32,536 nucleotides of DNA from Acidobacteriota bacterium. GTDB taxonomy: Bacteria; Acidobacteriota; Vicinamibacteria; Vicinamibacterales; 2-12-FULL-66-21. The translations under genes were made by a program, and so were the position numbers. Location: positions 1 through 32,536 of the forward strand of contig QHWR01000028.1 in NCBI GenBank assembly GCA_003223835.1, given 5' to 3'. Shown here piece by piece: positions 7,086 to 21,404 of the stretch (the stretch's first letter is position 1; the number at the start of each line of letters is the position of its first letter). The notes under the pieces are model-generated. The model searched no databases. It was not told where the DNA came from and worked only from the letters and a program-made list of their open reading frames with translations.

Positions 7086-8865
7086 CGGAGCCGCCGGAAC
7101 GGCCGCGGCCGTCCTCGTGGCTCTTCTCGCAGGCTGCGCCACAACCGGGGCCGTACGCGCCGGCCGGCGCGCCGAACAGGCGCAGAACTACGACCTTGCC
7201 GTCGTGGAATACACGAAGGCGGTGCGCGCGCAGCCCGACAACGTTGACGCGCGGGCGGCGCTCGAACGCGCGAAACTGCGCGCGGCGCAGGTCCATACCG
7301 CGAGCGGACGCCGCTTCGCCGCGCAGGGGCGCTACGAAGACGCGGTCGTCGAGTTCCAGCTCGCGTCCGAGCTGAACCCGACGGACGCGCTGGTGGACGC
7401 CGCGCTGCGCGACGCACGCCAGCGGCTGCGGACGAAGCTCGCCGTCACGCGCAACGGGCGCACCGATCTCGAGAACCTGATCGATCGCACGCGCGACCTG
7501 CCGCCGCCGGGGCTCGACCTCCCGGACCACACGAAGCTGCCGTCGTCGCTGGCGTTCAGCAATGCGAGCAGCAAGCTCGTGTTCATCTCGATCGCGAAGT
7601 TCGCCGACCTGAACGTCGTCTTCGACCCGGCGTTCCGCGAGCAGCCCGTGTCGATCGACCTGCGGAACATCACGCTCGAGGACGCGCTGGCGTCACTCAC
7701 CGCGAGCACTCACACGTTCTACCGGGTCACGGCCCAACGCACGATCACCATCGTGCCCGACACGCCGGCGAAGCGGCGAGAGTACGAAGAGTCCGTCGTC
7801 CGCACGTTCTATCTGAGCAACGCAGATCTGAAGGAAGTCATCGACCTCCTCCGTGTGGTGGTTGATATCCGTCAGATTTCGGCGATTACGGCGACGAACG
7901 CGATCTCCATCAAAGACACGCCGGAACGCATCGTGGCGGCGGCACGATTGATCAACGCAATCGACAAGGCACGGCCCGAAGTCGTCATCGAGGTCGAGCT
8001 GCTCGAGGTCAACCGGTCGCGGCTGCGCGAGTATGGGCTGGGGCTTGCGTCGCCGGGTTCCGACGGCATCAGCGGCGGGGCCGCGGCGAACGTGACCACG
8101 CTGCAGAATCTGAAGAATCTCACGGCCGCCGACGTCCTCGTCTCGGGAGTTCCGGCGCTGTACTACAAGCTGCTCAAGAACGACGCGTCCACGCGAACGC
8201 TTGCGAATCCGCAGCTTCGAACGGCGGAAGGGATCACGGCGATCGCGAGGTTCGGTCAACAGGTGCCGGTGCCGGTGACGACCTTTGCTCCGCTGGCGAC
8301 GGGTGGCGTCAACCAGCAGCCGATCACGTCCTTTTCGTACAGGGACATCGGCGTCAACATCGACATCACGCCGCGCACGCACCACAACGACGACGTCACG
8401 CTGGCGCTGAAGGTCAGCCTGTCGAACATTTCAGGGACGGGATTCGGCGACCTCCCGACGTTTGGCAACCGCGAGATCGCGACGACGATCCGTCTCAAGG
8501 ATGGCGAGACGAACATGCTCGCCGGACTCATCCGCGACGCGCTGATCGGCCGGCTCTTCGCGAGCAATCACAAGGAGCGCGAGCAGACCGACATCATCCT
8601 GACCCTGACGCCGCACATCGTTCGCGTGCTCGACGTCAACGAAGCGGACCTGCGGCCGTTCCGGCTGGGACGCGACACGGGGTCGCCGGCGGCGGAGCCG
8701 CCGACGCCGCCTGGTCCGCCGCGCGAGGAACCGCCGGGACCGGGAACGGGCGCACCGCCGGCGGCTCAGCCCGCGTTCCCGCAGCCGCTCGAGGGAAAAC
8801 TGCCCGGCGTGGCGATTCCGACGCCTCCGCCTCCGCCCAAGAAGGGAGGCGGCGGCGGGTCGTAG
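7054..8865 (+). CDS. TPR-containing lipoprotein secretin (GspD/PilQ family)
   Basis: Residues 1-28 form a lipoprotein signal ending in the lipobox LLAGC (Cys 28). TPR-like helices follow (about 35-130: RAEQAQNYDLAVVEYTKAV, then GRYEDAVVEFQLASELNP). A secretin N-domain (about 160-230) precedes a NolW-type module (about 240-305) and the secretin core (about 310-525), recognised by YRDIGVNIDITPRTH, REIATTIRLKDGETNMLAGL and TDIILTLTPHIVR. The tail (530-603) is rich in Pro and Gly and ends GGGGGS. Secretins form outer-membrane rings for type II secretion or type IV pili. Here the TPR and the lipid anchor are part of the same chain, which may replace a separate pilotin. ATG 7054 has GAGGGG just upstream and overlaps lolA. 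No other secretion or pilus genes are in the window. Confidence 0.88.
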   Translation: MSSRQARRYRSGAAGTAAAVLVALLAGCATTGAVRAGRRAEQAQNYDLAVVEYTKAVRAQPDNVDARAALERAKLRAAQVHTASGRRFAAQGRYEDAVVEFQLASELNPTDALVDAALRDARQRLRTKLAVTRNGRTDLENLIDRTRDLPPPGLDLPDHTKLPSSLAFSNASSKLVFISIAKFADLNVVFDPAFREQPVSIDLRNITLEDALASLTASTHTFYRVTAQRTITIVPDTPAKRREYEESVVRTFYLSNADLKEVIDLLRVVVDIRQISAITATNAISIKDTPERIVAAARLINAIDKARPEVVIEVELLEVNRSRLREYGLGLASPGSDGISGGAAANVTTLQNLKNLTAADVLVSGVPALYYKLLKNDASTRTLANPQLRTAEGITAIARFGQQVPVPVTTFAPLATGGVNQQPITSFSYRDIGVNIDITPRTHHNDDVTLALKVSLSNISGTGFGDLPTFGNREIATTIRLKDGETNMLAGLIRDALIGRLFASNHKEREQTDIILTLTPHIVRVLDVNEADLRPFRLGRDTGSPAAEPPTPPGPPREEPPGPGTGAPPAAQPAFPQPLEGKLPGVAIPTPPPPPKKGGGGGS

Positions 8866-11191
8866 CTATTCGGTTCTCAATGCCATCATCGGATCCACGC
8901 GCGTGGCGCGACGCGCGGGAATGTAGCTCGCGGCGACCGCGACCGCCAGAAGCACGACCGTGACCGCGACGAACGTCATCGGATCGGTCGGCGTCACGTT
9001 GTAGAGCGCGCCGCGGAGCACGCGGCTCGCGGCCAACGCGCAGCCAAGCCCCAGGACCATCCCGAGCCCCGACAGCCGCAGACCGTCGGCAATCACGAGC
9101 CGCAGGATCTGCTCGGGCCGCGCGCCGAGCGCCACGCGCAGACCCAGCTCGCGCGTCCTTCGCGAGCGCCGCGAAGAGGGCGAGCCCCAGCGTCTCGAAC
9201 CGGTCGAGGGAGACGGATGACGCGACCATCGCGGGCATCGCCTGAATCGACGGCGCAGGCAGTCCGGGGTCGATGCCGGCGAGCGCGTGCTCGAAGCCGC
9301 GTCGGAGCGCGTCGGGCGCGAGCGAGCTGCGCATCACGACCGTCATGAAGCTCCAGGGTGCCTGCCGGTACGGCTGAAAGAACTCCGGCCGTGGGGGCTC
9401 GCGCAGGCTCGAATGCTTGACGTCGGCCGCGACGCCCACGATCTCGAACCACGGTCCGCCGGTAATCCGGAAGCGCCGGCCGATTGGGCTGGCGTTGGGC
9501 CAATACCGCCGCGCCATCGCTTCGTTGACGATGGCGACGAGCGGCGCGCCCTCGCGATCGCGGTCGGTGAAAGAGCGGCCGCGGTCGATCGGGATGCCGA
9601 GGACGTCGAAATAATCCGGGCTGATGACGCGGATGCCGGCTTCGGCGTCCGCCACGCTGCCTGGAGGATCGAGATCGATGCCGCGAATGCTGTTCCCCTG
9701 GGCGAACGGCAGGCGCGCGGCGGCCGCGACGCTCGTGACGCCGGGTGTCGCCTTCAATTCCTCGAGCAGCCGATCGAAGAATTGCGCCTGCTGCGCGGGC
9801 GTCCGGTAACGCGCCGGCGGCAACGTCACCAACCCGGTCTGAAGCCCCGCGGGACGGAATCCAGGATCGACGCTTCGCAGGGCGAGGAAGCTGCGAACCA
9901 TCAGCCCGGCGCCGGCGAGCAACGCCAGCGAGATCGCGAACTCCCCTACGACGAGCGCCTGCCGCACGAGCCGTCCTTCACGGCTGCCGGTGCTTCGGCC
10001 CGCGGCCTTCAGCGCGTCGGCGAGATTCCACCGGGATGCCTGAAGCGCGGGTGCGCAGCCAAACAGCAATCCCGTCGCGATCGATGCCACGAGCGCGAAC
10101 AAGAGAACCGGGAGACCGAGATTCGCATCGACCGAACGCACCGAGGCCGGCGCGAACCTGAGCAACGTCGGCAGGATCCACGCGGCCACCAACGTGCCGA
10201 GCGCGCCGCCGGCGACGGCGAGCACGCTGCTCTCCGTCAGCAACTGCCGGATGATTTGACCGCGTCCGGCGCCCAGCGCGGCGCGGATGCTGATCTCCTG
10301 ATGACGCGCCGTCGACCGTGCCAGCATGAGATTCGCGATGTTCGCGCAGGCGATCAACAGCACGAGCCCCACCGTCGCGAGCAGGATCAGCAGCGGAGAT
10401 CTGAGGTCGCCGATCAGCCATTCTCGAAGCGGGATCAGGGCCGCGCCGACGTCCTCCTGCGACACCTCGTCGGGGTACCGTCGCATCAGTTGCGTGAAGA
10501 TGAGCCGCCGCTCGCTTTGCGCCTGCTGGAGCGTGACGCCGGGTTTGAGGCGGCCGTACACGCCGATGTAATGCGATCCACGCATCTGCGTCGCGTCGGC
10601 TTCGGGCCTGAGCGGATACTCGGGGACGACATGACGTGGAGGAACCCACATCAGACACGGCGACGGAAAGTCGAATCCGGGCGGCATGACGCCGACGACC
10701 ATGAACGGCTGACCGTTGAGGGCAAGCGTCGTCCCCACGATGCGCGGATTCGCGCCGAAGCGGCTGCGCCACAACGAATCCGCCAGCACGACGACGCGTT
10801 CGCCGCTCTCGTCGTCGCCGCGCGTCAACGTCCGCCCGAGCACGGCCGGAACGCCCATGACGTCGAAGAAATCGCCGGTCACGATCGCTCCCTCGATCGC
10901 TGCCGGCCGATCGAGCCCCGTGAGCGCAAATCGCGTGTCGCGCAGCGCCGCGATCGCGGCAAACGCGCTGGTCTGCGCACGCCAGTCGAGGAAGAGCCCG
11001 GGCGATTGATCGTCGGCGACGACAATGCGGCTGCTGTCCGGATAAGGAAGAGCCCTCACCAGCGCGGCGTAGACCACCGCGAACATCGACGTATTCGCGC
11101 CAACGCCGAGCGCCACGGTCAGCAGCACGACGGCCGTGAACGCCGGCGAGCTGCGGAGCATGCGGAGGGCGTAGCGTAAGTCTTGTTTCAT
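8866..11191 (-). pseudogene. MacB/FtsX-type ABC permease (acidobacterial orphan type), internal deletion and frameshift
   Basis: ATG 11191 has GAGGG 5 bases upstream. The first part (to about 9160) shows the full N-terminal half: MKQDLRYALRMLRSSPAFT, a MacB periplasmic core, LLILLATVGLVLLIACANIANLMLARS with the IRAALGAGRGQIIRQLL coupling helix, and a second periplasmic core. The frame is lost right after LGLALFAALA. The remainder resumes in another frame as RTRELGLRVALGARPEQIL and runs through the last two membrane helices to MMALRTE* at 8866. Roughly 20 residues of the seventh membrane helix region are missing, and the total length is 3n+1, so both a deletion and a frameshift are present. 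There is no ATPase gene nearby, as usual for these orphan permeases. It follows murA by 23 bases. As read, it cannot give an intact transporter. Confidence 0.85.
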
Positions 11192-11214: not shown

Positions 11215-12471
11215 CTACGGAACCCGTTCGACCTGGGCCCCGAGACCGCGGAGCCGATCGACGAGCGACGCGTACCCGCGCTCCACCGTTTCGAGCGGCG
11301 CGATGCGGGTTTCTCCTTCGGCGGCGAGCGCCGCCGCGATGAGCGCCATGCCGGACCGGAGATCGCGGCTGTCGAGCGACCGGCCTTTCAGCTTCGTCGG
11401 GCCGCTCACGATGATGCGATGCGGATCGCACAGGAACAAATCGGCGCGCATCGCGCTGAGCTGCTCCAGCGCGAACAGACGCAGTTCGTACAGCCAGTCG
11501 TGGACGAGCGTCCGGCCGTCCGCCTGGGTCGCCAGCACGGTGACGAGACTCACCATGTCGCTCGGAAAGCCGGGCCACAGGCTCGTCGTGATCCGGCGCG
11601 TGGCGGTCAGCTGCGACGGTTCGACGGTGAATCGGTTGTCTTCGTACGCACACCGAACGCCCATCTTCCGCAGCGGCGCCGCGATCACTTCGATATCGAG
11701 CGCGCGCGCGCCGGTCACCTCGATCTCGCCACCCGTGATCGCCGCGACCACGCCCCAGCTTCCCGCTTCGATGTAGTCGCCGCGCAGCCGGTGGCACGCG
11801 CCGCCGAGCCGAGGCGGCGGCTCGACGCCGATCGTCGTCGTTCCCTCGCCTTCGATCGCGACGCCCATCCGCCGCAGGAACTCGCACAATTCGACCACGT
11901 GCGGTTCCATCGCGGCGTGACGGATCTCCGTACGGCCGCGCGCGGCAGCAGCGGCGAGCAGCGCCGTTTCCGTTCCCGTCACCGACGCCTCGTCGAGATA
12001 GATCGAGGTGCCGTGCAACCCGCCGCGTGCCTCGAGCGCATGCCCCGGCTCGTCGAGCGCGGTTGCGCCCATCGCGTGCAGCGCCTGGAGGTGCGTCGCG
12101 ATCGTGCGGCGCGCGGGAAAATCTCCGCCGGGGGGCGCAAGCCGCGCCGAGCCGTAACGCGCGAGAAGCGGGCCGAGCAACAGCACCGAGCCGCGAAGCT
12201 TGCCGACGAGCACGGGATCGGGACGATCGCCCGAGATCCGTTCGCAGACGACGCGGACGGTCGCCGTCCCGCGCCCTTCGACGGAGGCACCGAGATCCTC
12301 CAGCAGATCGATCAGCACCTCGACGTCGCGGATGCGGGGCACGTTCGTGATCTCGCACGGCCGGTCGGTCAGCAGGCACGCGGCGAGGAGCGGCAGCGCC
12401 GAGTTCTTGTTCCCCTCGACGCTCACGCGGCCCGACAGCCGCCGCCCTCCTTCAATTCGCAGTGTGGCCAT
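11215..12471 (-). CDS. murA: UDP-N-acetylglucosamine 1-carboxyvinyltransferase with Cys-to-Asp active site
   Basis: MurA transfers enolpyruvate from PEP to UDP-GlcNAc, the first committed step of peptidoglycan synthesis, in the cytoplasm. The 418-residue length is normal. Visible active-site residues are K22 and N23 (EGNKNSALPLLAA), R122 and H127 (numbered here), PGFPSDM for the Asp that takes the C3 proton, and DLRSGMAL with the PEP-binding Arg. The loop reads PPGGDFPARRTIATH: Asp 117 replaces the Cys (C115 in E. coli) that fosfomycin alkylates. Asp at this position is known from mycobacterial and chlamydial MurA, which remain active but are fosfomycin-insensitive. The start codon lies inside the end of murB (20-base overlap). 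Intrinsic fosfomycin resistance is a reasonable inference. Confidence 0.93.
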   Translation of the reverse strand: MATLRIEGGRRLSGRVSVEGNKNSALPLLAACLLTDRPCEITNVPRIRDVEVLIDLLEDLGASVEGRGTATVRVVCERISGDRPDPVLVGKLRGSVLLLGPLLARYGSARLAPPGGDFPARRTIATHLQALHAMGATALDEPGHALEARGGLHGTSIYLDEASVTGTETALLAAAAARGRTEIRHAAMEPHVVELCEFLRRMGVAIEGEGTTTIGVEPPPRLGGACHRLRGDYIEAGSWGVVAAITGGEIEVTGARALDIEVIAAPLRKMGVRCAYEDNRFTVEPSQLTATRRITTSLWPGFPSDMVSLVTVLATQADGRTLVHDWLYELRLFALEQLSAMRADLFLCDPHRIIVSGPTKLKGRSLDSRDLRSGMALIAAALAAEGETRIAPLETVERGYASLVDRLRGLGAQVERVP

Positions 12472-13354
12472 CGTCGAATCCCAGAAAGACGATTTCCTCG
12501 CGCAGCTCGACGCCGAAGCGCGCGCGCACGCCGTCCTTGCAGCGCTGAATCAGCCGGCGCACGTCGGTCGCGGTGGCGCCCCCTTCGTTGACGATGAAGT
12601 TCGCGTGGGTCATCGACACGCGCGCGGCGCCTTCGCGCGCGCCCTTGAGCCCCGCGCGATCGACGAGCGCGCCCGCCGACGCGGGGATGCCGTCCGGAAT
12701 CCGATCGCGGGACGGATCCGGATTCTGAAAAATGCAGCCGGCGCTCGGCGACTCGAGCGGCTGCGTGCGCTTGCGGTACGCGAGCGATTCCCGCGCGACC
12801 GCGCGCAGCGCCGCCGCGTCCCCGCGCCCGACGCGGAAATCGGCCGACAGCACGGCCTCGACCGATAGGACTTCGCCCCTCTCGCTCGCCAGTTCGGCCT
12901 GCACGACCAGCTCGCCGATCAGGCGTCCGCGAAAATGCGCGTTGCCGAAGATGGCGCCCCCGACGGTGCCAGGCGTGCCCGCCCACATCTCGAGCCCCGC
13001 GCACCCGTGCGCGATCGTCCAGCGGACGAGCCCGTTGATCGTGACGCCCGCATCGGCGCGAATGCGATCGACGCCGAGTTGTCGCACATCGCCGCCGTGC
13101 ACGCGAATCACGACGCCGCGGACGCCGCGGTCCGAGACGAGGACATTGGAGCCGCCGCCAAGCAGCGTCACCGGGACCCCCGCGTCGCGCGCGATTTCGA
13201 GCGCGCGTCGAACGTCGTCGGCGCGATGCGCGAGGACGAGCCAGTCGGCGGTCCCGCCGAGCTTGAACGTCGTGAACGGCGCGAGCGGCGCGTCACGCGC
13301 GACCCGATCGTCGCCGAGCGCACGTTTCAGCCGGACGGCGAAGTCGTCGCGCAT
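12452..13354 (-). CDS. murB: UDP-N-acetylenolpyruvoylglucosamine reductase
   Basis: MurB reduces the enolpyruvyl product of MurA with NADPH and FAD to give UDP-MurNAc. I place the start at ATG 13354 (300 residues), preceded by GAGTGAG; a longer frame begins at 13462 but would translate repeat-rich intergenic DNA. FAD-binding motifs are clear: FTTFKLGGTADWLV, VTLLGGGSNVLVSD and WAGTPGTVGGAIFGNA. The catalytic segment reads SAGCIFQNP, with Cys 207 at the position of the proton-donating Ser of E. coli MurB; Cys occurs there in some MurB lineages. The C-terminal GAARVSMTHANFIVNEGGAT contains the catalytic Glu region. The length and lack of the extra domain fit the short type II class. It is upstream of and overlaps murA. 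Confidence 0.93.
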   Translation of the reverse strand: MRDDFAVRLKRALGDDRVARDAPLAPFTTFKLGGTADWLVLAHRADDVRRALEIARDAGVPVTLLGGGSNVLVSDRGVRGVVIRVHGGDVRQLGVDRIRADAGVTINGLVRWTIAHGCAGLEMWAGTPGTVGGAIFGNAHFRGRLIGELVVQAELASERGEVLSVEAVLSADFRVGRGDAAALRAVARESLAYRKRTQPLESPSAGCIFQNPDPSRDRIPDGIPASAGALVDRAGLKGAREGAARVSMTHANFIVNEGGATATDVRRLIQRCKDGVRARFGVELREEIVFLGFDDGHTAN

Positions 13355-13363
13355 CTCACTCAG

Positions 13364-13470
13364 CCCGGGGGCTTCGCCCCGCGGACCCCCTGCACGCCCC
13401 CTCGCGGGGACCCCGACCCCGCTCCGGGTCGTGGCTCGCTTGCTTCGCTCGCTCGCTCGCATTGCCGACT
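13364..13470. repeat. GC-rich intergenic element with hairpin and GCTCG repeats
   Basis: Between pxpC and murB lies a short hairpin, GGGGC-TTC-GCCCC (13368-13380), followed by runs of CCCC/GGGG and a GCTCG-rich tract ending in CGCTCGCTCGCTCGC (about 13430-13462). A related tract is found between rimM and trmD at 29671-29732 and a shorter one near 19650-19680. This looks like a dispersed intergenic repeat inserted in an otherwise gapless operon. There is no T-run, so it is not an obvious intrinsic terminator. Confidence 0.5.
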
Positions 13471-13474
13471 CTTC

Positions 13475-14413
13475 TCATCCGGCCACCGGACCGGCATCGC
13501 CCGCGAGCGACGCCACACGTTCGCGAAGCGCCTCGAGCGCTTCGTCGCGCGCGCAGGCGATGAACTCGATCGAGTCGCCGGGCGCGAGCTGACCGGCGAG
13601 CGGCAGATCGGCCGTGATCGCCGTCGCGATGACGGCGTAGCCGCCGGTCGTCTGACGATCCGCCATCAACAGAATCGCCTGCCCTGAAGACGGCACCTGG
13701 ATCGATCCAATCGGCGTCGCCTCGGAGAGAATGTCGGCGCCGGAGACGTGCGGCAGCGCCGGCCCGTCCAGGCGATAGCCCATGCGGTTGGATTGCGGCG
13801 TCACGAGAAACCGCGATCCGGTCAGCAAGGTCCACGCCCGATCCGTGAAGCGCGCGCGATGGGGCGCGGGCAGCACCCGGATGCGCGCATGACCGTCGGG
13901 CAGCGGCAGCGGCGCGCCCACGCGCGGCGTGCCGGCCGCGCGCGCGCCGATCGTGACACGATCGCCGGCGGTCAGTTGACGGCCGCCGAACGGTCCCATC
14001 CGGCTGACGAGGTGCGTGGCGCGGCTGCCGAACGTCGCGGGGACGTCGATTCCGCCGGCAAAGGCGAGCGTCGCCCGCGCCCCGCGACGCCGCGCGCCGA
14101 AGCGCAGTCGCGCGCCGGCCGGCAGGACGAATGCACGGTCGCTCGACACGACCTGCCCGTCAATCGTGAGATCGAAGGCAGCGCCCGCGACAGCGCACTC
14201 GACGTCCGCGTCGCTCTGAAGCTCCGGTCCGATCAACGTCACTTCGAGCGCAGCCGCCGACGCGTCATTGCCCGCGAGCTGGTTTGCGAGCTGATGAGAG
14301 TACCAATCCATCGGGCCGGCGACGGGCACGCCGAGTCCCTGATAGCCGCGGCGTCCCCGGTCCTGGACGGTCGTCAATATGCCTGGGCGGACGACGCTGA
14401 TCGTTGCGCTCAC
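13475..14413 (-). CDS. pxpC: 5-oxoprolinase subunit C (biotin-dependent carboxyltransferase-like, KipA family)
   Basis: The 312-residue protein has the family opening ISVVRPGILTTVQDRGRRGYQGLGVPVAGPMDWYSH and the later blocks FLVTPQSNRMGYRLDGPAL and ILMADRQTTGGYAVIATAI, all typical of PxpC/KipA. With PxpA and PxpB, this subunit hydrolyses 5-oxo-L-proline (pyroglutamate) to glutamate using ATP. I prefer GTG 14413, whose GTGA overlaps the pxpB stop by four bases; GTG 14425 would add four residues. The family name carboxyltransferase is historical and does not imply biotin use. No pxpA (LamB/YcsF family) gene is in the window, so the enzyme would need a distant third subunit. Confidence 0.9.
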   Translation of the reverse strand: MSATISVVRPGILTTVQDRGRRGYQGLGVPVAGPMDWYSHQLANQLAGNDASAAALEVTLIGPELQSDADVECAVAGAAFDLTIDGQVVSSDRAFVLPAGARLRFGARRRGARATLAFAGGIDVPATFGSRATHLVSRMGPFGGRQLTAGDRVTIGARAAGTPRVGAPLPLPDGHARIRVLPAPHRARFTDRAWTLLTGSRFLVTPQSNRMGYRLDGPALPHVSGADILSEATPIGSIQVPSSGQAILLMADRQTTGGYAVIATAITADLPLAGQLAPGDSIEFIACARDEALEALRERVASLAGDAGPVAG

Positions 14414-15117
14414 GCCGCGCTCCACGCGCTGGTCCGATGGAACTCACCCTCCGAGATCCGGCGGAATCGCACGCGATCGCCGGGCCGCAGCAGAAACGGC
14501 TCGGCGCGCGCCGGGTCGTACGGTTTCACCGGCGTCCGCCCGATGATGTGCCAGCCGCCGGGCGTCTCGGAAGGATAGACACCGGTCTGGCCCGCGGCGG
14601 TCGCGACCGCGCCGGCCGGCACCCTGAGACGCGGCGTCGCGCGCCGTGGCGCCGCGATCGAAGGATCCACGGCCGCCATGTAGGCGAAGCCGGGCACGAA
14701 GCCCACCATGAACACGCGGTACTCGCGCGCGAGGTGACGCGCGATCACCTCCTCCACGCCGCACCGCGCAAACGCGGCGACGTCCGGCAGGTCGGGCCCG
14801 AATGCGCCGTCGTAACAAACGGGCAGCTCCACCAGATGGCCGGCGATTCCACCGCCCGCCGGGCGCGCGCGGGCCATCTCCTCGAGCATGCGCGGCACGC
14901 GCCCCGCATCATCGGCCAGCGGGTCCGCGTAGATCATGACGGTGCGGTAACCGACGACGATGTCCGTCAGGCCCGGGATGCGCGCGGCTTCGACCCGCGC
15001 GGCCAGCTCGATCGCGCGGGCATTCACCTCGGCGTCGATCCGTTCGGGCAGCTCGATGAGCCACGCCGAGTCGCCGGCGGCGACGACGCGCGGGTCGATC
15101 GAATCATCCGGCGGCAC
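14410..15117 (-). CDS. pxpB: 5-oxoprolinase subunit B (KipI family)
   Basis: The 235-residue protein matches the PxpB/KipI family over its full length: an N-terminal AGDSAWLIELPERID domain, LPVCYDGAFGPDLPDVA, then the diagnostic FMVGFVPGFAYMAAVD and VPAGAVATAAGQTGVYPSETPGGWHIIGRTP blocks. Together with PxpC it forms the core of ATP-dependent 5-oxoprolinase; in Bacillus the homologue also inhibits the KinA sporulation kinase, which is unlikely to apply here. The start is GTG 15117, which lies within the end of mpl (14-base overlap), and its own end overlaps pxpC. This tight packing ties it to the peptidoglycan recycling genes. Confidence 0.92.
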   Translation of the reverse strand: MPPDDSIDPRVVAAGDSAWLIELPERIDAEVNARAIELAARVEAARIPGLTDIVVGYRTVMIYADPLADDAGRVPRMLEEMARARPAGGGIAGHLVELPVCYDGAFGPDLPDVAAFARCGVEEVIARHLAREYRVFMVGFVPGFAYMAAVDPSIAAPRRATPRLRVPAGAVATAAGQTGVYPSETPGGWHIIGRTPVKPYDPARAEPFLLRPGDRVRFRRISEGEFHRTSAWSAA

Positions 15118-16507
15118 GGGTCTGGAGCGCCGTCAGCAGTTTCTCGTGGATGCCGTCGAACCCGCCGTTCGACATGATGACGACGAGGTCGCCCGCGCGC
15201 GCCTCGCGCGCGACCGACGCGACGATGTCGTCGACCCGCGGCACGTACCGGGCGTCCTGTCCGCGGGCGCGCAGATCGGCAATCAGTTGCTCGATCGACA
15301 AGCGCTGCTCGTCGGGAAGATTCGCGCGAAACACGGCCGGCAGGATCACGTGGTCCGCCGCGCTGAACGCCTTCGCGAATTCGTCCTGGAACACTCTCCG
15401 GCACGAGGTCGCGGAGCGCGGTTCGAACACGGCCCAGATGGGCCGATCCGGATACGCGGACCGCACGCCCGCCAGCGTCTCGGCAATCGCGGTCGGGTGA
15501 TGCGCGAAGTCGTCGTAAATGGCCACGCCCGCGACGGTCCCCCGGAGCTGCATCCGGCGGCGCACGCCTTTGAATCGGCGGAACGCCTCCGCGATCGTGT
15601 CGGGGTTGAGCCCGACCGCGGACCCCACGGCGATCGCGGCGAGCGCATTGCGCACGTTGTACGCCCCGAGCAGCGGGACCTCGAAAAGGCCGATCGGCGT
15701 GCCGCCCCGGCGGACCCCGAAATGCGTGACCCCGGCGTCGATCTTCAGATCGTGGCCCTGCCAGTCCACGCCGTCGCTCAATCCGAACGTCTCGACCTTG
15801 CACCGCGCCGTCTGAGCGAGCGCACGCGCCTCGCGGTCATCGCCGCCGAGCAACAGGAGGCCGCGGCGCGGGATCAGATTCACGAGACGCCGGAACGCCA
15901 CGCGGATGCTTTCGAGATCCGCGTAGATATCGGCGTGGTCGAACTCGATGTTGCTCACCACGGCGACGTCCGGCAGGTACTTCAGGAACTTGGCCGTCTT
16001 GTCGAAAAACGCGCTGTCGTACTCGTCCCCTTCCAGCACGAAGTCGCGGCCGCCGCCGATCCGATAACTCCCCGCGAAATTCTCGGCAATGCCGCCGATG
16101 AACACGCTCGGGTCGAGCTCCGCGTGCGTCAACACCCACCCCGCCAGCGACGTCGTGGTCGTCTTGCCGTGCGTCCCGGCGATCACGATCGAGCGGGCGC
16201 CCCAGAGAAAATGATCGCGCACCGCTTCCGGCAGCGAGCAATAGCGGATCTTCCGATCCAGCACCTCTTCCAGTTCGGGGTTTCCGCGCGAGATCGCATT
16301 GCCGACGACGACGAGATCGAGATCCGCCGTGATGTGCTGCGGATCGTAACCTTGCAGGGTGGCGATCTGCTGCTCGGCGAGGAAGTCGCTCATCGGCGGA
16401 TAGACGTTCTGGTCCGATCCCCGGACGTCATAGCCGCGCCGTTTGAGCATCGCGGCGAGCGTCGCCATGGCGGTGCCGCAGATGCCGATCAGATGGATGC
16501 GTTTCAT
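15104..16507 (-). CDS. mpl: UDP-MurNAc:L-Ala-gamma-D-Glu-meso-DAP ligase (murein peptide ligase)
   Basis: Mpl attaches recovered L-Ala-gamma-D-Glu-meso-DAP tripeptide to UDP-MurNAc, the recycling shortcut in cytoplasmic peptidoglycan synthesis. The 467-residue length is typical. It opens with KRIHLIGICGTAMATLA (MurC/Mpl-type GxxGxG) and SDQNVYPPMSDFL, has the ATP loop GTHGKTTTT (111-119), and VLEGDEYDSAFFDK, the Mpl-type segment that differs from MurC. Further ligase blocks are SNIEFDHADIY, LLGAYNVRNALAA, YDDFAHHPTAIAETL and VFEPRSATS. The FDK and SCRR features favour Mpl over MurC. It starts 6 bases after ldcA ends and overlaps pxpB. It occupies the position before murB that murC holds in many cell-wall clusters. 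Confidence 0.93.
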   Translation of the reverse strand: MKRIHLIGICGTAMATLAAMLKRRGYDVRGSDQNVYPPMSDFLAEQQIATLQGYDPQHITADLDLVVVGNAISRGNPELEEVLDRKIRYCSLPEAVRDHFLWGARSIVIAGTHGKTTTTSLAGWVLTHAELDPSVFIGGIAENFAGSYRIGGGRDFVLEGDEYDSAFFDKTAKFLKYLPDVAVVSNIEFDHADIYADLESIRVAFRRLVNLIPRRGLLLLGGDDREARALAQTARCKVETFGLSDGVDWQGHDLKIDAGVTHFGVRRGGTPIGLFEVPLLGAYNVRNALAAIAVGSAVGLNPDTIAEAFRRFKGVRRRMQLRGTVAGVAIYDDFAHHPTAIAETLAGVRSAYPDRPIWAVFEPRSATSCRRVFQDEFAKAFSAADHVILPAVFRANLPDEQRLSIEQLIADLRARGQDARYVPRVDDIVASVAREARAGDLVVIMSNGGFDGIHEKLLTALQTRAAG

Positions 16508-16513
16508 GCGCGC

Positions 16514-17440
16514 TCAGCCGACGGCGGACTCTTCGATCACGAGCGCGGCGCGCGGCGTGGTGACGACGCGGGCCCTGACGCCGAACGGCAGCGTGAGCGC
16601 GGCGCCGTTCGTGTGGCCCGATGGAAGCCCGAAGAGCACCGGTCCGTGGAAGTCGGCAACCGCTTCGGCGACCACGTCGCGAGCGGACGGGCCGTCATCG
16701 CCCGGTTCGTCGCAGCGCGGCAGCTCGCCGAAGACGACCGCCGCGGCGCGGCCGAGCAGGCCCGCCAGTCGCAGCTGCATCAACATGCGGTCCAGCCGGT
16801 ACGGCCGCTCCCCCGCCTCGTCGATGAACAAGACGTATTCGAAGGGGGGATCGAACGCATACGGCGTCCCCAGCGACGCGAGGAGCTGCGTCAGCGTGCC
16901 GCCGAGGAGGATGCCGCGCGCGTCGCCGTCGCGGATCGGCTCCAGGCCGTCGTGCGTGATGACGCCGGCCGCCTCGGGACGCGTGAGGCAGCGCAGGAAC
17001 GTGTCGCGATCGTAGCCGGCCTCGCCGCGCGCGAGCCGCCCCTCCAGCATCGGCCCATGGAACGAGACGATGCCGCAGTGGATGTTCAGCCAGGCGAGCA
17101 GCGACGTGTTGTCGCTGTAGCCGATGAAGGCCTTCGGCGTGCGACGGACTTCGTCGGGATCGAGTTGCGGGAGGAGCTGAACGCTGCCGTAGCCGCCGCG
17201 CGCGGCGATCAGCGCCGCGATCGACGCGTCATTCCACGCGCGCCGGAACGCCGCGGCCCTGATCTCCGCGGTGCCCGCGACGTAGCCGTGCCGGTGAAAG
17301 ACGGACGGATCGAAGACGGGCTCGAACCCGAGCCGCCGGATTTCCTCGACGCCGGCGTCGAACGCCTCCCGGGCGAATGGACTGGCGGGCGCGACGACGG
17401 CGATGCGATCGCCCGGCCGGAGCGCGCGCGGCTTGAGCAT
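16514..17440 (-). CDS. ldcA: LD-carboxypeptidase (peptidase S66, muramoyltetrapeptide carboxypeptidase)
   Basis: LdcA removes the terminal D-Ala from recycled tetrapeptides, giving the tripeptide used by Mpl. The 308-residue product begins LRPGDRIAVVAPASPF, as usual for S66. The triad is visible: Ser 109 in FIGYSDNTSLL, Glu 208 in LFIDEAGERPYRLDRML and His 276 in GLPSGHTNGA. The ARGGYGSVQLLPQLD segment is also characteristic. No signal peptide is seen, in keeping with the cytoplasmic enzyme. It starts 2 bases after nagZ and ends 6 bases before mpl, so substrate flow and gene order agree. Confidence 0.93.
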   Translation of the reverse strand: MLKPRALRPGDRIAVVAPASPFAREAFDAGVEEIRRLGFEPVFDPSVFHRHGYVAGTAEIRAAAFRRAWNDASIAALIAARGGYGSVQLLPQLDPDEVRRTPKAFIGYSDNTSLLAWLNIHCGIVSFHGPMLEGRLARGEAGYDRDTFLRCLTRPEAAGVITHDGLEPIRDGDARGILLGGTLTQLLASLGTPYAFDPPFEYVLFIDEAGERPYRLDRMLMQLRLAGLLGRAAAVVFGELPRCDEPGDDGPSARDVVAEAVADFHGPVLFGLPSGHTNGAALTLPFGVRARVVTTPRAALVIEESAVG

Positions 17441-17442
17441 CG

Positions 17443-18472
17443 CTACGCGAACCTCGCCATTTCGGCGGCGATCGCCTGGTGCTCGTCACGTCCCAGGATC
17501 GTGTGGAGCGGCGCCGCCGGCCGCGCGGAGCGGGGCCGCGCGAGAAACCGCCCCTTGACGCGCCGCTGGCGCGCGACCGCCTCCTCGACGCGCTTGACCG
17601 GCAGACGGCCGGCCTCGACGGCGTGGATCAGCGTCTCGAGCGCGTCGACCTGCGCGTCCTGGTCGGGCGGACACATCAGGACCGCATCGCACCCGGCCGC
17701 GATGGCCAGCACCGTCGCCTCGCTGTGACCGTAACGGCCGCTGATCGCTTTCATCTCGAGATCGTCGCTGAGGACGAGGCCCTCGTAGCCGAGCGTCTTC
17801 CTGAGCAATCCGTCCACGATCGCAGCCGACAACGTCGCGGGACGCTCCTCGTCCAGCGCCGGGATCAGAATGTGCGCCGTCATGATCGCGGCGACGTCGG
17901 CGGCGATGGCGGCCTTGAACGGCACCAGCTCGACCGCGTCGAACCGATCGGGCGGATGCTCGATGACCGGCAGCTCGTGATGCGAGTCGGTCGTCGTGTC
18001 GCCATGACCGGGAAAGTGCTTGCCGCACGCCGCGATCCCTTCCGCCTGCAGGGTCCGGATGATCGCCGCGCCGAGCCGCGCGACGTCTTCCGCCCGATCC
18101 GCGAGCGCGCGGTCGCCGATCACGGGATTGCCCGGGTTCGTGCGCACGTCGAGCACCGGCGTGTAATCGAGAGAGATGCCGACCGCCTTCAGCTCCGCGG
18201 CCAGCGCGCGCGCGAACCGTTCGGCGAGCCGCTCGTCGCCGCTCCGGCCGAGCGTGATCATCGGCGGCCATTCCGTGAACGGCTTGCGGAGGCGGGCGAC
18301 AGGTCCTCCCTCCTGCCACCTGCTGCGGCTCGGCGACGTTGCGCGCGAAGAAGATCACGCCGCCGAGATCGAACGCCTTCGCGAGCCGCCGCAGGTCTTC
18401 GGGAATCGTGTGGCCCGCGAAGCCGGCGATCGCGAGCTGTCCCGCATGACGGCGGAAGTCCCTGAGCGACAC
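17443..18472 (-). pseudogene. nagZ: beta-N-acetylhexosaminidase NagZ (GH3), internal deletion and frameshift
   Basis: NagZ removes GlcNAc from GlcNAc-anhydroMurNAc peptides in cell-wall recycling. From GTG 18472 the frame reads VSLRDFRRHAGQLAIAGFAG...DLGGVIFFARNVAEPQQV and then becomes nonsense near 18315. The true continuation is in another frame: QEGGPVARLRKPFTEWPPMITLG, followed by GKHFPGHGDTTTDSHHELP (with the conserved acid-base loop), AIMTAHILIPALD and LVLSDDLEMKAI (nucleophile Asp), ending at 17443. Relatives have about 20 more residues between AEPQQV and DQEGG, so some 60 bases and the Asp of DQEGG are missing, and the length is 3n+1. Short CAG/GGAGG repeats sit at the junction. As read, no intact enzyme is made; the gene may be decaying or misassembled. 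Confidence 0.85.
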
Positions 18473-18498: not shown

Positions 18499-18522
18499 CA
18501 CCACAGAGAGAACAGAGTGGTG
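18499..18522. repeat. CACCACAGAG...GTGGTG short inverted repeat
   Basis: CACCAC (18499-18504) and GTGGTG (18517-18522) are perfect complements around a 12-base AGAGAGAACAGA spacer. The GTG start codons of the GHMP kinase are the right arm. The 12-mer GAGAGAACAGAG (18506-18517) occurs again at 19546-19557, next to the larger repeat after the gene. CACAGAG-type intergenic repeats are widespread in acidobacterial and related genomes. Confidence 0.6.
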
Positions 18523-19581
18523 AATAATGTTCGAGTGCACATTGAAGCGTCCGCGCCGACACGGATCGATCTCGCGGGCGGGACGCTCGACATCTGGCCG
18601 CTCTATCTGTTCCATCACGGCGCGCAGACGATTAACGCCGCGATCAGTCTGCGCGCGTGGTGCGAGATCCGGCCGCGTCCGGATCGCCGTCTCGTGATCG
18701 TTTCCGACGACGCCGGCCAGCGCGTCGAAGTCGACCACTGGTCGCAGCTCCGCGACACCCACGACCTGAAGCTGCTCGGACGGCTGCTGCACTACTTTCA
18801 AGCGGAAGGACTCGAGCTGCGCACGCGGTCCGAGTCTCCGGTCGGCGCCGGCATCGCCGGTTCGTCGGCGCTCAACATCGCGGTGTGCGGCGCGTTGAAC
18901 GCGTGGAGCGGCGGCCGGCGCTCGGCCGACCAGATTTTTCAGATCGCCATGAACGTCGAGGCGCAGGCGATCGACGTCCCGACCGGCGTGCAGGATTACC
19001 GGCCGGCGTACTACGGCGGCATCTCCGCCGTGGAGCTGGGCGTGGACGGCATCCGCCGCGTGCCGCTCGACGTCGGGACGGACGAACTGCAGGCGCGGCT
19101 CGCGCTCGCGTACACCAACGCGTCGAGGAACTCCGGCATCAACAACTGGGAAGTCACGAAGCGTCACATCGATGGCGACGCCGGCGTCCAGCTTCGGTTC
19201 GCCCGCATCCGCGACATCGCGGCGGCGATGCGCGCCGCGCTCGAACGGCGCGACTGGCCGGAGGTCGGCCGGCAGATCGCCGCCGAATGGGAGAACCGCA
19301 AGGCGCTCGCGCCGGGCGTGACGACACCCGACATCGACGCGCTCCTCGCTGCGGCGGCCGCGGCTGGAGCGCTCGCGGGCAAGGTGTGCGGCGCCGGCGG
19401 CGGCGGGTGTCTGTTCTGCTTCGCCGATCCCGAGCGCATCCCCGCCGTCAAGCAGGCGCTCGCCGCCACCGGTGCGAAGGGGCTGGATTTCCGGATCGAG
19501 TCCGAGGGCCTGCGGATCGTCCGGCGCGAGGCGGCAGACGGAGCGGAGAGAACAGAGAAACGGAACTCACCGCAGAGATAA
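18517..19581 (+). CDS. GHMP-family sugar kinase (heptose/galactose-kinase-like)
   Basis: The product has three GHMP kinase motifs: RIDLAGGTLDIWPLYLF near residue 17 (sugar-binding side), PVGAGIAGSSALNIAV near 108 (ATP-binding glycine loop) and KVCGAGGGGCLFCF near 289. Such kinases phosphorylate small sugars or sugar phosphates with ATP in the cytoplasm. The substrate cannot be read from sequence; similarity is greatest to the D-glycero-D-manno-heptose 7-phosphate kinase and galactokinase branch. GTG 18517, 18520 or 18535 could start translation. The last dozen residues (AERTEKRNSPQR) are encoded by the downstream CACAGAG repeat, so the original stop was probably lost or replaced. The gene is divergent from nagZ across only about 44 bases. 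Confidence 0.85.
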   Translation: MVNNVRVHIEASAPTRIDLAGGTLDIWPLYLFHHGAQTINAAISLRAWCEIRPRPDRRLVIVSDDAGQRVEVDHWSQLRDTHDLKLLGRLLHYFQAEGLELRTRSESPVGAGIAGSSALNIAVCGALNAWSGGRRSADQIFQIAMNVEAQAIDVPTGVQDYRPAYYGGISAVELGVDGIRRVPLDVGTDELQARLALAYTNASRNSGINNWEVTKRHIDGDAGVQLRFARIRDIAAAMRAALERRDWPEVGRQIAAEWENRKALAPGVTTPDIDALLAAAAAAGALAGKVCGAGGGGCLFCFADPERIPAVKQALAATGAKGLDFRIESEGLRIVRREAADGAERTEKRNSPQR

Positions 19582-19685: not shown

Positions 19686-21404
19686 ATGGACAATCTCGCG
19701 ATTGCGCGCGTGCTCGGCGAGATTGCCGACCTGCTCGAGATCAAGGCGGAGAATCCATTCAAGATCCGCGCGTATCGCAACGCGGCCGACACCGTCGTCC
19801 ACGAGGCGCGGCGCGTGGCCGACATCCCGGCTGCCGAGCGTCTGGCGCTGCCCGGCATCGGCAAGGACATCGCCGCCAAGATCGGCGAGCTGGCCGAAAC
19901 CGGCACGCTCCGCTATCACCAGGAACTGCTCGAGGAATTCCCGCCGACCGTGCTCGACCTGCTGCACCTGCAGGGCGTCGGGCCGAAGACCGTGGCGCTC
20001 CTCTATCGCGGCCTCGGCATCCGCACGTTGCAGGACCTCGAGGACGCCGCGAAGAACGGCCGGCTCCGCGAGCTCAAAGGCATGGGAGCGAAGAAAGAGG
20101 CGCTCATCCTCAAGGCGCTCGAGGAGCGTCAACGGGTCGCCGGACGCCGGCTGATGGCCGAAGCGTACGATACGGCGGCCGCGCTCGTCGGCGAGCTGCG
20201 CGCGCACGCGCCCGGCGCCGAAATCCACATGGTCGGAAGCCTGCGCCGCGGCTGTGAGACGTGCGGGGACCTCGACGTCCTCGCGGCGGGGGCGCCCGCG
20301 TCCGTGATGGACGCGTTCACGGGCTACCGCCTCGTCGAGCGCGTGCTCGCGCACGGCGAGACGAAGTCGAGCGTGCTGCTCTTCGGCGGATTTCAGGCGG
20401 ACCTCCGACTCGTCCCGCGCGAGAGCCTCGGCGCCGCGCTCCAGTACTTCACGGGTTCGAAGACGCACAACATCGAGCTGCGCGACCGCGCGATTCGGCA
20501 CGGGCTCAAGCTGAACGAGTACGGCCTGTTTCGAGTCGAGGACGGAACCCGGATCGCCGGCGAAGACGAAGCGGCGCTTTACGAAGCGCTCGGGCTCGCC
20601 TTCGTCCCGCCGGAGCTGCGCGAGAACCGCGGCGAGATCGACGCGGCCATCGCCCACGCGCTGCCGCCGCTCGTGCGGCTGTCGGATCTTCAGGGCGATC
20701 TGCACATGCACACCACGGCGACCGACGGCCGCGCCGATGCGGAATCGATGGCGCGCGCGGCGCTGGCGGCGGGTTTACGCTACATCGCGATCACCGACCA
20801 CAGTCAGTCGCTCGCGATGGCGAACGGCCTCGACGAGACGCGCGCGCTCGAACACGCGCGCGCGGTCCGCAGCCTGAACGGCCGCCTCGAGGGCATGACG
20901 GTACTGGCGGGCATCGAGTGCGACATCCGGCCCGACGGGACGATGGATCTCGCCGACGACTGCCTCGCGGAGCTGGACCTCGTCGTCGCGTCCGTCCACT
21001 CGGCGTTCCATCAGGAAGAAGCGCAGATGACCGACCGGCTGCTCCGCGCCATCGACTGCCGGTGGGTGGACATCCTCGGCCATCCGACCGGACGGCTGAT
21101 CCTGAAGCGCGACGGCTACAAGGCGGATTTCGGGCGCGTCTTCGCCGCCGCCGCCCGCGCCGGCGTGGCGCTCGAGATCAACTGCCAGATCGACCGGCTC
21201 GATCTGAGCGACGTGCACGCGCGGCAGGCGCGCGACGCGGGCGCCCGGTTCGTCATCGGATCCGACGCGCACAGCCCGGCGGCGTTCGGCGGGCTGCGCT
21301 GGGGCGTGACCGTCGCCCGCCGCGCCTGGCTCACGCCGGCCGACATCCTCAACACGCGTCCGCTCGACGAATGCCTCGCCGGGCTGCGGCGTCATCGGAG
21401 GTGA
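19686..21404 (+). CDS. polX: DNA polymerase X family (polymerase beta-like plus PHP)
   Basis: Bacterial PolX fills short gaps during base excision repair; its PHP domain adds 3'-5' exonuclease and AP-endonuclease activities. The 572-residue length is standard. The order is an N-terminal 8-kDa/HhH region (ENPFKIRAYRNAADTV, LPGIGKDIAAKI, LQGVGPKTVALLY), a palm with GSLRRGCETCGDLDVL near 184 (the metal Asp pair) and FQADLRLV near 239 (third Asp), a thumb (ALQYFTGSKTHNIELR), and a PHP domain from about 335 (GDLHMHTTATDGR, IAITDHS, GIECDIRPDG, ASVHSAF, GHPTGR, EINCQ, GSDAHSP). All key residues are present, in contrast to the paralogue at 5100-6326. Its TGA overlaps the ATG of the next gene. Confidence 0.93.
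   Translation: MDNLAIARVLGEIADLLEIKAENPFKIRAYRNAADTVVHEARRVADIPAAERLALPGIGKDIAAKIGELAETGTLRYHQELLEEFPPTVLDLLHLQGVGPKTVALLYRGLGIRTLQDLEDAAKNGRLRELKGMGAKKEALILKALEERQRVAGRRLMAEAYDTAAALVGELRAHAPGAEIHMVGSLRRGCETCGDLDVLAAGAPASVMDAFTGYRLVERVLAHGETKSSVLLFGGFQADLRLVPRESLGAALQYFTGSKTHNIELRDRAIRHGLKLNEYGLFRVEDGTRIAGEDEAALYEALGLAFVPPELRENRGEIDAAIAHALPPLVRLSDLQGDLHMHTTATDGRADAESMARAALAAGLRYIAITDHSQSLAMANGLDETRALEHARAVRSLNGRLEGMTVLAGIECDIRPDGTMDLADDCLAELDLVVASVHSAFHQEEAQMTDRLLRAIDCRWVDILGHPTGRLILKRDGYKADFGRVFAAAARAGVALEINCQIDRLDLSDVHARQARDAGARFVIGSDAHSPAAFGGLRWGVTVARRAWLTPADILNTRPLDECLAGLRRHRR

Follow-up and report, generated by a model that had tools for sequence, protein, structure and literature searches.

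pxpBC genes of 5-oxoprolinase within a conserved cell-wall recycling cluster of Vicinamibacterales, with pxpA encoded elsewhere in the genome

Pyroglutamate (5-oxoproline) arises spontaneously from glutamine, glutamate and γ-glutamyl phosphate, and the three genes of the 5-oxoprolinase PxpABC usually share one gene cluster, an arrangement that the enzyme itself does not need. In the accepted scheme, PxpBC phosphorylates 5-oxoproline with ATP, and PxpA opens the ring and frees glutamate (PMC13274462). Here we analyze a stretch of 32,536 nucleotides, hereafter the window, from an Acidobacteriota bacterium of the order Vicinamibacterales (contig QHWR01000028.1 of assembly GCA_003223835.1, a draft of 400 contigs that is 93% complete), in which pxpB and pxpC lie among genes for cell-wall recycling and synthesis. 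Neither the enzyme nor the set of recycling genes is new in itself; what is new is a split pxpABC with pxpBC inside the recycling operon, of which a limited search of the open literature found no description.

The minus strand from 11215 to 18472 reads nagZ-ldcA-mpl-pxpB-pxpC-murB-murA, with neighboring genes overlapping or lying a few bases apart except at the spacer between pxpC and murB. The order, strand and tight packing are thus as described in the initial annotation, with the exception that nagZ is not a single open frame in this assembly. The most downstream gene, murA (11215-12471, 418 aa), encodes a UDP-N-acetylglucosamine 1-carboxyvinyltransferase (TIGR01072, 408.3 bits against a cut-off of 392.7; PF00275), and murB (12452-13354, 300 aa) encodes a UDP-N-acetylmuramate dehydrogenase (TIGR00179, 179.9 bits, cut-off 144.5), its start being set from the sequence at the ATG at 13354; a longer in-frame start at 13462 falls within a repeat. 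This repeat, which had been noticed before, fills the 120-nt spacer between pxpC and murB (13355-13474) and is a copy of an interspersed element with 21 matches in its own genome, itself included, at 77-100% identity, whereas in the other linked loci the pxpC stop and the start of the MurB domain are separated by a median of 6 nt. At the other end of the pxp pair, mpl (15104-16507, 467 aa) encodes the UDP-N-acetylmuramate:L-alanyl-γ-D-glutamyl-meso-diaminopimelate ligase (TIGR01081, 429.8 bits, cut-off 388.7) and fits that model better than the murC model, for which its 332.3 bits fall below the cut-off of 335.1. It is preceded by an ldcA-type LD-carboxypeptidase gene of peptidase family S66 (16514-17440, 308 aa), which is above cut-off for PF02016 and PF17676 and below it for NF008424 (124.1 bits against 378). 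Downstream of murA, a large minus-strand frame (8636-10930) reads in translation as an ABC-type permease with an ADOP-like layout.

Both pxp genes match their family models. PxpC (13475-14425, 316 aa) scores 287.1 bits with PF02626 and 267.6 bits with TIGR00724 (cut-off 230.2), and PxpB (14410-15117, 235 aa from a GTG at 15117) scores 175.8 bits with TIGR00370 (cut-off 145.55) and also matches PF02682. The GTG lies inside the 3' end of mpl, giving an overlap of 14 nt, in agreement with the initial annotation. Among structures in the PDB, PxpC matches chain A (YbgK, E 8.6e-53) and PxpB matches chain B (YbgJ, E 1.4e-40) of 5dud, the solved E. coli YbgJ-YbgK complex; PxpB additionally has a match in 2zp2, the structure of the Bacillus kinase A inhibitor. 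With the narrow equivalog NF045499 (306 model residues), PxpC reaches 224.9 bits, far under the cut-off of 500, which counts against an ordinary 5-oxoprolinase, though a cut-off so high would fit a narrow group only.

The first gene of the cluster, nagZ, is represented by two halves in different frames, a C-terminal part (17443-18315, PF00933 221 bits, placed by alignment with relatives) and an N-terminal part (18316-18472, from a GTG at 18472), because 62 nt flanked by short CAGG repeats are missing at 18315/18316 relative to four relatives (G037, G038, G035 and G029). The gene is intact in these relatives, and no intact glycoside hydrolase family 3 gene is read at this position of the present assembly; the gap reflects either true decay of the gene or a fault in the assembly of this draft genome. 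Divergent from nagZ, and kept beside the cluster in most relatives, are a GHMP-type kinase gene (18517-19581, HddA-like and far under the cut-off of that model) and a PolX gene (19686-21404). Given that no AnmK was found in the source genome, the kinase may, speculatively, be a candidate recycling sugar kinase.

Although the initial annotation was right that pxpA is missing near the cluster, the gene is present in the genome: a single copy lies on another contig (G000:C382:20948-21661; PF03746 338 bits; NF003814 366.3 bits against a cut-off of 226) and is followed by an MFS transporter gene. Since pxpB and pxpC each have exactly one match in the source genome, both within the cluster, a normal pxpABC operon elsewhere, which was looked for, is absent, and the single complete set of 5-oxoprolinase genes is split over two places. 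pxpA likewise lies on a contig other than that of the cluster in all 20 linked genomes for which the pxpA locus was inspected, so that the three genes do not form one cluster there either. The genes beside pxpA, read from their translations, are an MFS transporter in families f1/f2 and elsewhere a DGQHR-like protein, argJ with an argF-type gene, or acyl-CoA synthetases; none is consistent across families, and they were dropped as a hint to function.

The arrangement around mpl is not peculiar to this genome. pxpC is present in 146 of the 185 genomes of the class. In 90 genomes of the window's order it is a same-strand neighbor of mpl, with a median start-to-start distance of ~1.9 kb that leaves room for pxpB. 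Chance or a private arrangement was rejected on this ground, the same order recurring in dozens of genomes. When 60 linked loci were read, 52 had the full set of seven genes, co-directional and in this order, and the other eight were cut by contig ends, lacked murB-murA (L079 and L081) or had overlapping frames; measured from the stop of one gene to the domain of the next, every junction had a median gap of 5-20 nt. The arrangement is found in at least 10 families, a comparison that the earlier suggestion of a meaningful placement withstands. Nine of 14 entries of the order in which mpl and pxpC are not adjacent belong to families f3 and f9, which have a classical operon; those in G042 and G130 are extra copies, the other copy being adjacent in each; and in G050, G103 and G163 the two genes are on different contigs, with pxpC ~1 kb from a contig start in the first two and the contig starting at pxpB in the third (L086).

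Outside the order, mpl and pxpC shared a contig in none of 20 genomes from the other orders of the class. A separate scan of named genomes recovered the same cluster in all 20 loci titled Acidobacteria, Terriglobia bacterium or Vicinamibacterales, and found pxpBC beside mpl in none of 60 named loci from other lineages, nearly all of which have pxpA nearby. Among 20 loci read from elsewhere in the phylum, none had pxpBC beside mpl. The layout is old and well conserved in this order of Acidobacteriota from soil and groundwater. Variants occur within it. In part of family f12 (L066-L072, L074-L076) PxpB and PxpC are fused in one frame and MurB is clearly divergent, with scores of about 250-270 against 450. 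In two loci of family f13 (L079, L081; genomes of 1.5-2.5 Mb) the cluster stops after pxpC, murB-murA are absent and pxpA was not found; these are possibly reduced genomes with an incomplete 5-oxoprolinase.

The history of the insertion can be read from relatives that lack it. In families f3, f5, f7 and f11 and a few members of f2 (loci including L136-L149), mpl is followed directly by murB in the cluster nagZ-ldcA-mpl-murB-murA, so that pxpBC must have been inserted into, or lost from, an older operon. In a concatenated tree of PxpB and PxpC, all mpl-linked copies form one clade (SH-aLRT 98), which also holds G163, unlinked solely through a contig end, and the copies from classical operons, those of f3 and f9 included, are separate. 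On the Mpl tree, the pxpBC-free lineages are scattered and imply five changes, at least three of which are forced by supported branches. A single insertion with later losses accounts for both the pxpBC-free relatives and the single PxpBC clade, and as judged from these trees the simplest reading would be that pxpBC entered once, early in the order, that several lineages lost it later, and that a classical operon took its place in f3 and f9. In the latter two families (L096-L104), which have no mpl-linked pxpBC, the classical pxpABC operon belongs to another PxpBC clade and its PxpA sits on a long branch; this operon is probably a replacement.

Despite their separation, pxpA and pxpBC are retained or lost jointly. 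Among the 185 genomes, pxpA and pxpC occur together in 136, are jointly missing from 29 and are discordant in 20 (odds ratio 39, Fisher p 3e-17, kinship ignored), at least some discordant cases being contig ends (loci L154 and L155; the contigs of G117 and G179 end inside pxpB). All five independent contrasts in pxpC presence on the Mpl tree go with pxpA, with a sign test p of 0.0625 that is the limit for five. The distances of PxpA and PxpBC, compared over 21 genomes in which the genes are unlinked, correlate at r 0.84, and still at r 0.72 (permutation p 0.0002) after removal of the Mpl/LdcA/NagZ distance, as compared with 0.15 to PxpBC and -0.01 to PxpA for the MurA control; the co-divergence drops to 0.39 without three fast-evolving genomes. 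The linked proteins generally retain most of the residues that are near-invariant (at least 95%) in classical PxpABC, and the source genome departs from them at one of 93 columns (PxpB 0/21, PxpC 1/35, PxpA 0/37). Taken together, the joint presence and absence, the co-divergence and the retained residues argue strongly, at the level of sequence, against PxpBC having left 5-oxoprolinase.

These observations bear directly on whether the PxpBC of the cluster might act without PxpA, either as a kinase regulator of the KipI/KipA type or on another wall-linked lactam or acyl substrate. The PxpB match to 2zp2, the position of pxpA outside the cluster and a few genomes with pxpC in which pxpA was not found would fit such a role, which we nevertheless consider highly improbable, given that pxpA accompanies pxpBC and diverges along with it, that the conserved residues are retained, and that the genomes with pxpC only are drafts of 74-94% completeness. 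The oddity of a PxpBC without PxpA, implied by the initial annotation, thereby disappears, as the genome does contain a pxpA, and pxpA follows pxpBC both in presence or absence and in divergence. Rather more weight attaches to the view that the shared operon reflects history only, in that pxpBC landed there once and translational coupling has made its loss costly, with no functional tie to the wall genes. The single insertion, the overlapping gene ends, the retention of pxpA elsewhere and the several lineages that dropped pxpBC while retaining the rest of the cluster are all in keeping with this view, but conservation over at least 10 families is less so, and f3 and f9, which lack the mpl-linked pair, own a classical operon instead, which shows that the enzyme as such is of value. 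On balance we regard a purely historical origin as unlikely, though it merits serious consideration.

A closer tie is conceivable, in which wall turnover releases γ-D-glutamyl peptides or D-glutamate that are cyclised and then restored to glutamate by PxpABC; this would explain why pxpBC lies beside mpl. The position of the pair between recycling and synthesis genes, held over the whole order, speaks for this, as does the one GGACT (γ-glutamyl cyclotransferase-like) gene of the source genome. Across the class, GGACT and pxp are weakly associated (odds ratio 2.3, p 0.05); being weak and uncorrected for kinship, this signal was not used as evidence. Wall-derived pyroglutamate needs a cyclising step, and Mpl takes the intact tripeptide, so that its route yields no pyroglutamate. 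Pyroglutamyl peptidase was rejected as a source for the class, since it occurs in five of 185 genomes and is absent from the source genome. Moreover, families without pxp still keep nagZ-ldcA-mpl-murB-murA, GGACT persists in the pxp-less families f7 and f5, the pxpA neighbors are an MFS transporter or unrelated genes with none of the wall-recycling genes sought at the pxpA loci read, and PxpABC is known for the L-form (PMC13274462). A wall origin of the pyroglutamate therefore appears improbable, in view of the near absence of pyroglutamyl peptidase, the weak GGACT signal, the Mpl route and the pxp-less families. The proposal of the initial annotation that PxpBC acts on cyclised γ-D-glutamyl stem-peptide products has nothing but gene order in its favor: recycling genes persist in pxp-less lineages, and candidate feeder enzymes are absent or weakly associated; its milder half, a supply of glutamate, is compatible with all the evidence. 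In our estimation quite improbable, too, is the idea that 5-oxoprolinase serves wall recycling in this order by converting stem-peptide pyroglutamate, perhaps in the D-form and with altered stereospecificity, for the glutamate pool. If true, it would close a glutamate salvage loop that, to our knowledge, has not been described in known peptidoglycan recycling pathways. As a separate observation, L112 (G010), G011 and G012 have a gene for pyroglutamyl peptidase at a distance of 2-3 kb from pxpABC, a classical pyroglutamate salvage neighborhood.

We favor, with good though not complete confidence, an ordinary ATP-dependent PxpABC whose pxpBC genes were inserted between mpl and murB in the ancestor of the order, were kept there, and are probably co-expressed with the wall genes. 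PxpB and PxpC would be the subunits thought to activate 5-oxoproline, with PxpA supplied from the single distant gene. The pre-existing operon nagZ-ldcA-mpl-murB-murA would have taken in the pair, by which 5-oxoprolinase capacity probably came to be co-expressed with wall recycling and UDP-MurNAc synthesis; salvage of pyroglutamate to glutamate may then track the demand for wall precursors. Should this tie be functional, glutamate salvage and wall turnover would be coordinated in these bacteria. What might be misread as PxpBC without PxpA is an order-wide split enzyme, two subunits of which are tied to wall genes and the third unlinked, and all three are kept, lost and diverging jointly despite the split.

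In comparison with known systems, the set resembles PxpABC (E. coli YbgJ-YbgK-YbgL, B. subtilis, and the C. glutamicum pxpTABC; PMC13274462) in its three single-copy subunits matching the family models, its conserved residues and the genome-wide co-occurrence of A with BC, and differs from classical PxpABC in having pxpBC within a wall operon and pxpA solitary. Unlike in the C. glutamicum pxpTABC, the linked loci show no NRAMP-type pxpT next to pxpBC, and in the window's family and some relatives it is an MFS transporter that accompanies pxpA. KipI/KipA of Bacillus, the kinase A inhibitor, belong to the same protein families as PxpB/PxpC, a similarity at the family level only, and differ in that the pxpA partner is kept here. 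Lastly, the surrounding genes correspond to the NagZ-LdcA-Mpl recycling set with MurB-MurA, the Mpl, MurA and MurB models being above cut-off and the LD-carboxypeptidase and NagZ families present; they depart from the standard set in the disrupted nagZ of this assembly, in the lack of a detected AnmK in the genome and in the two pxp genes at mid-cluster, with or without which the recycling cluster is conserved.
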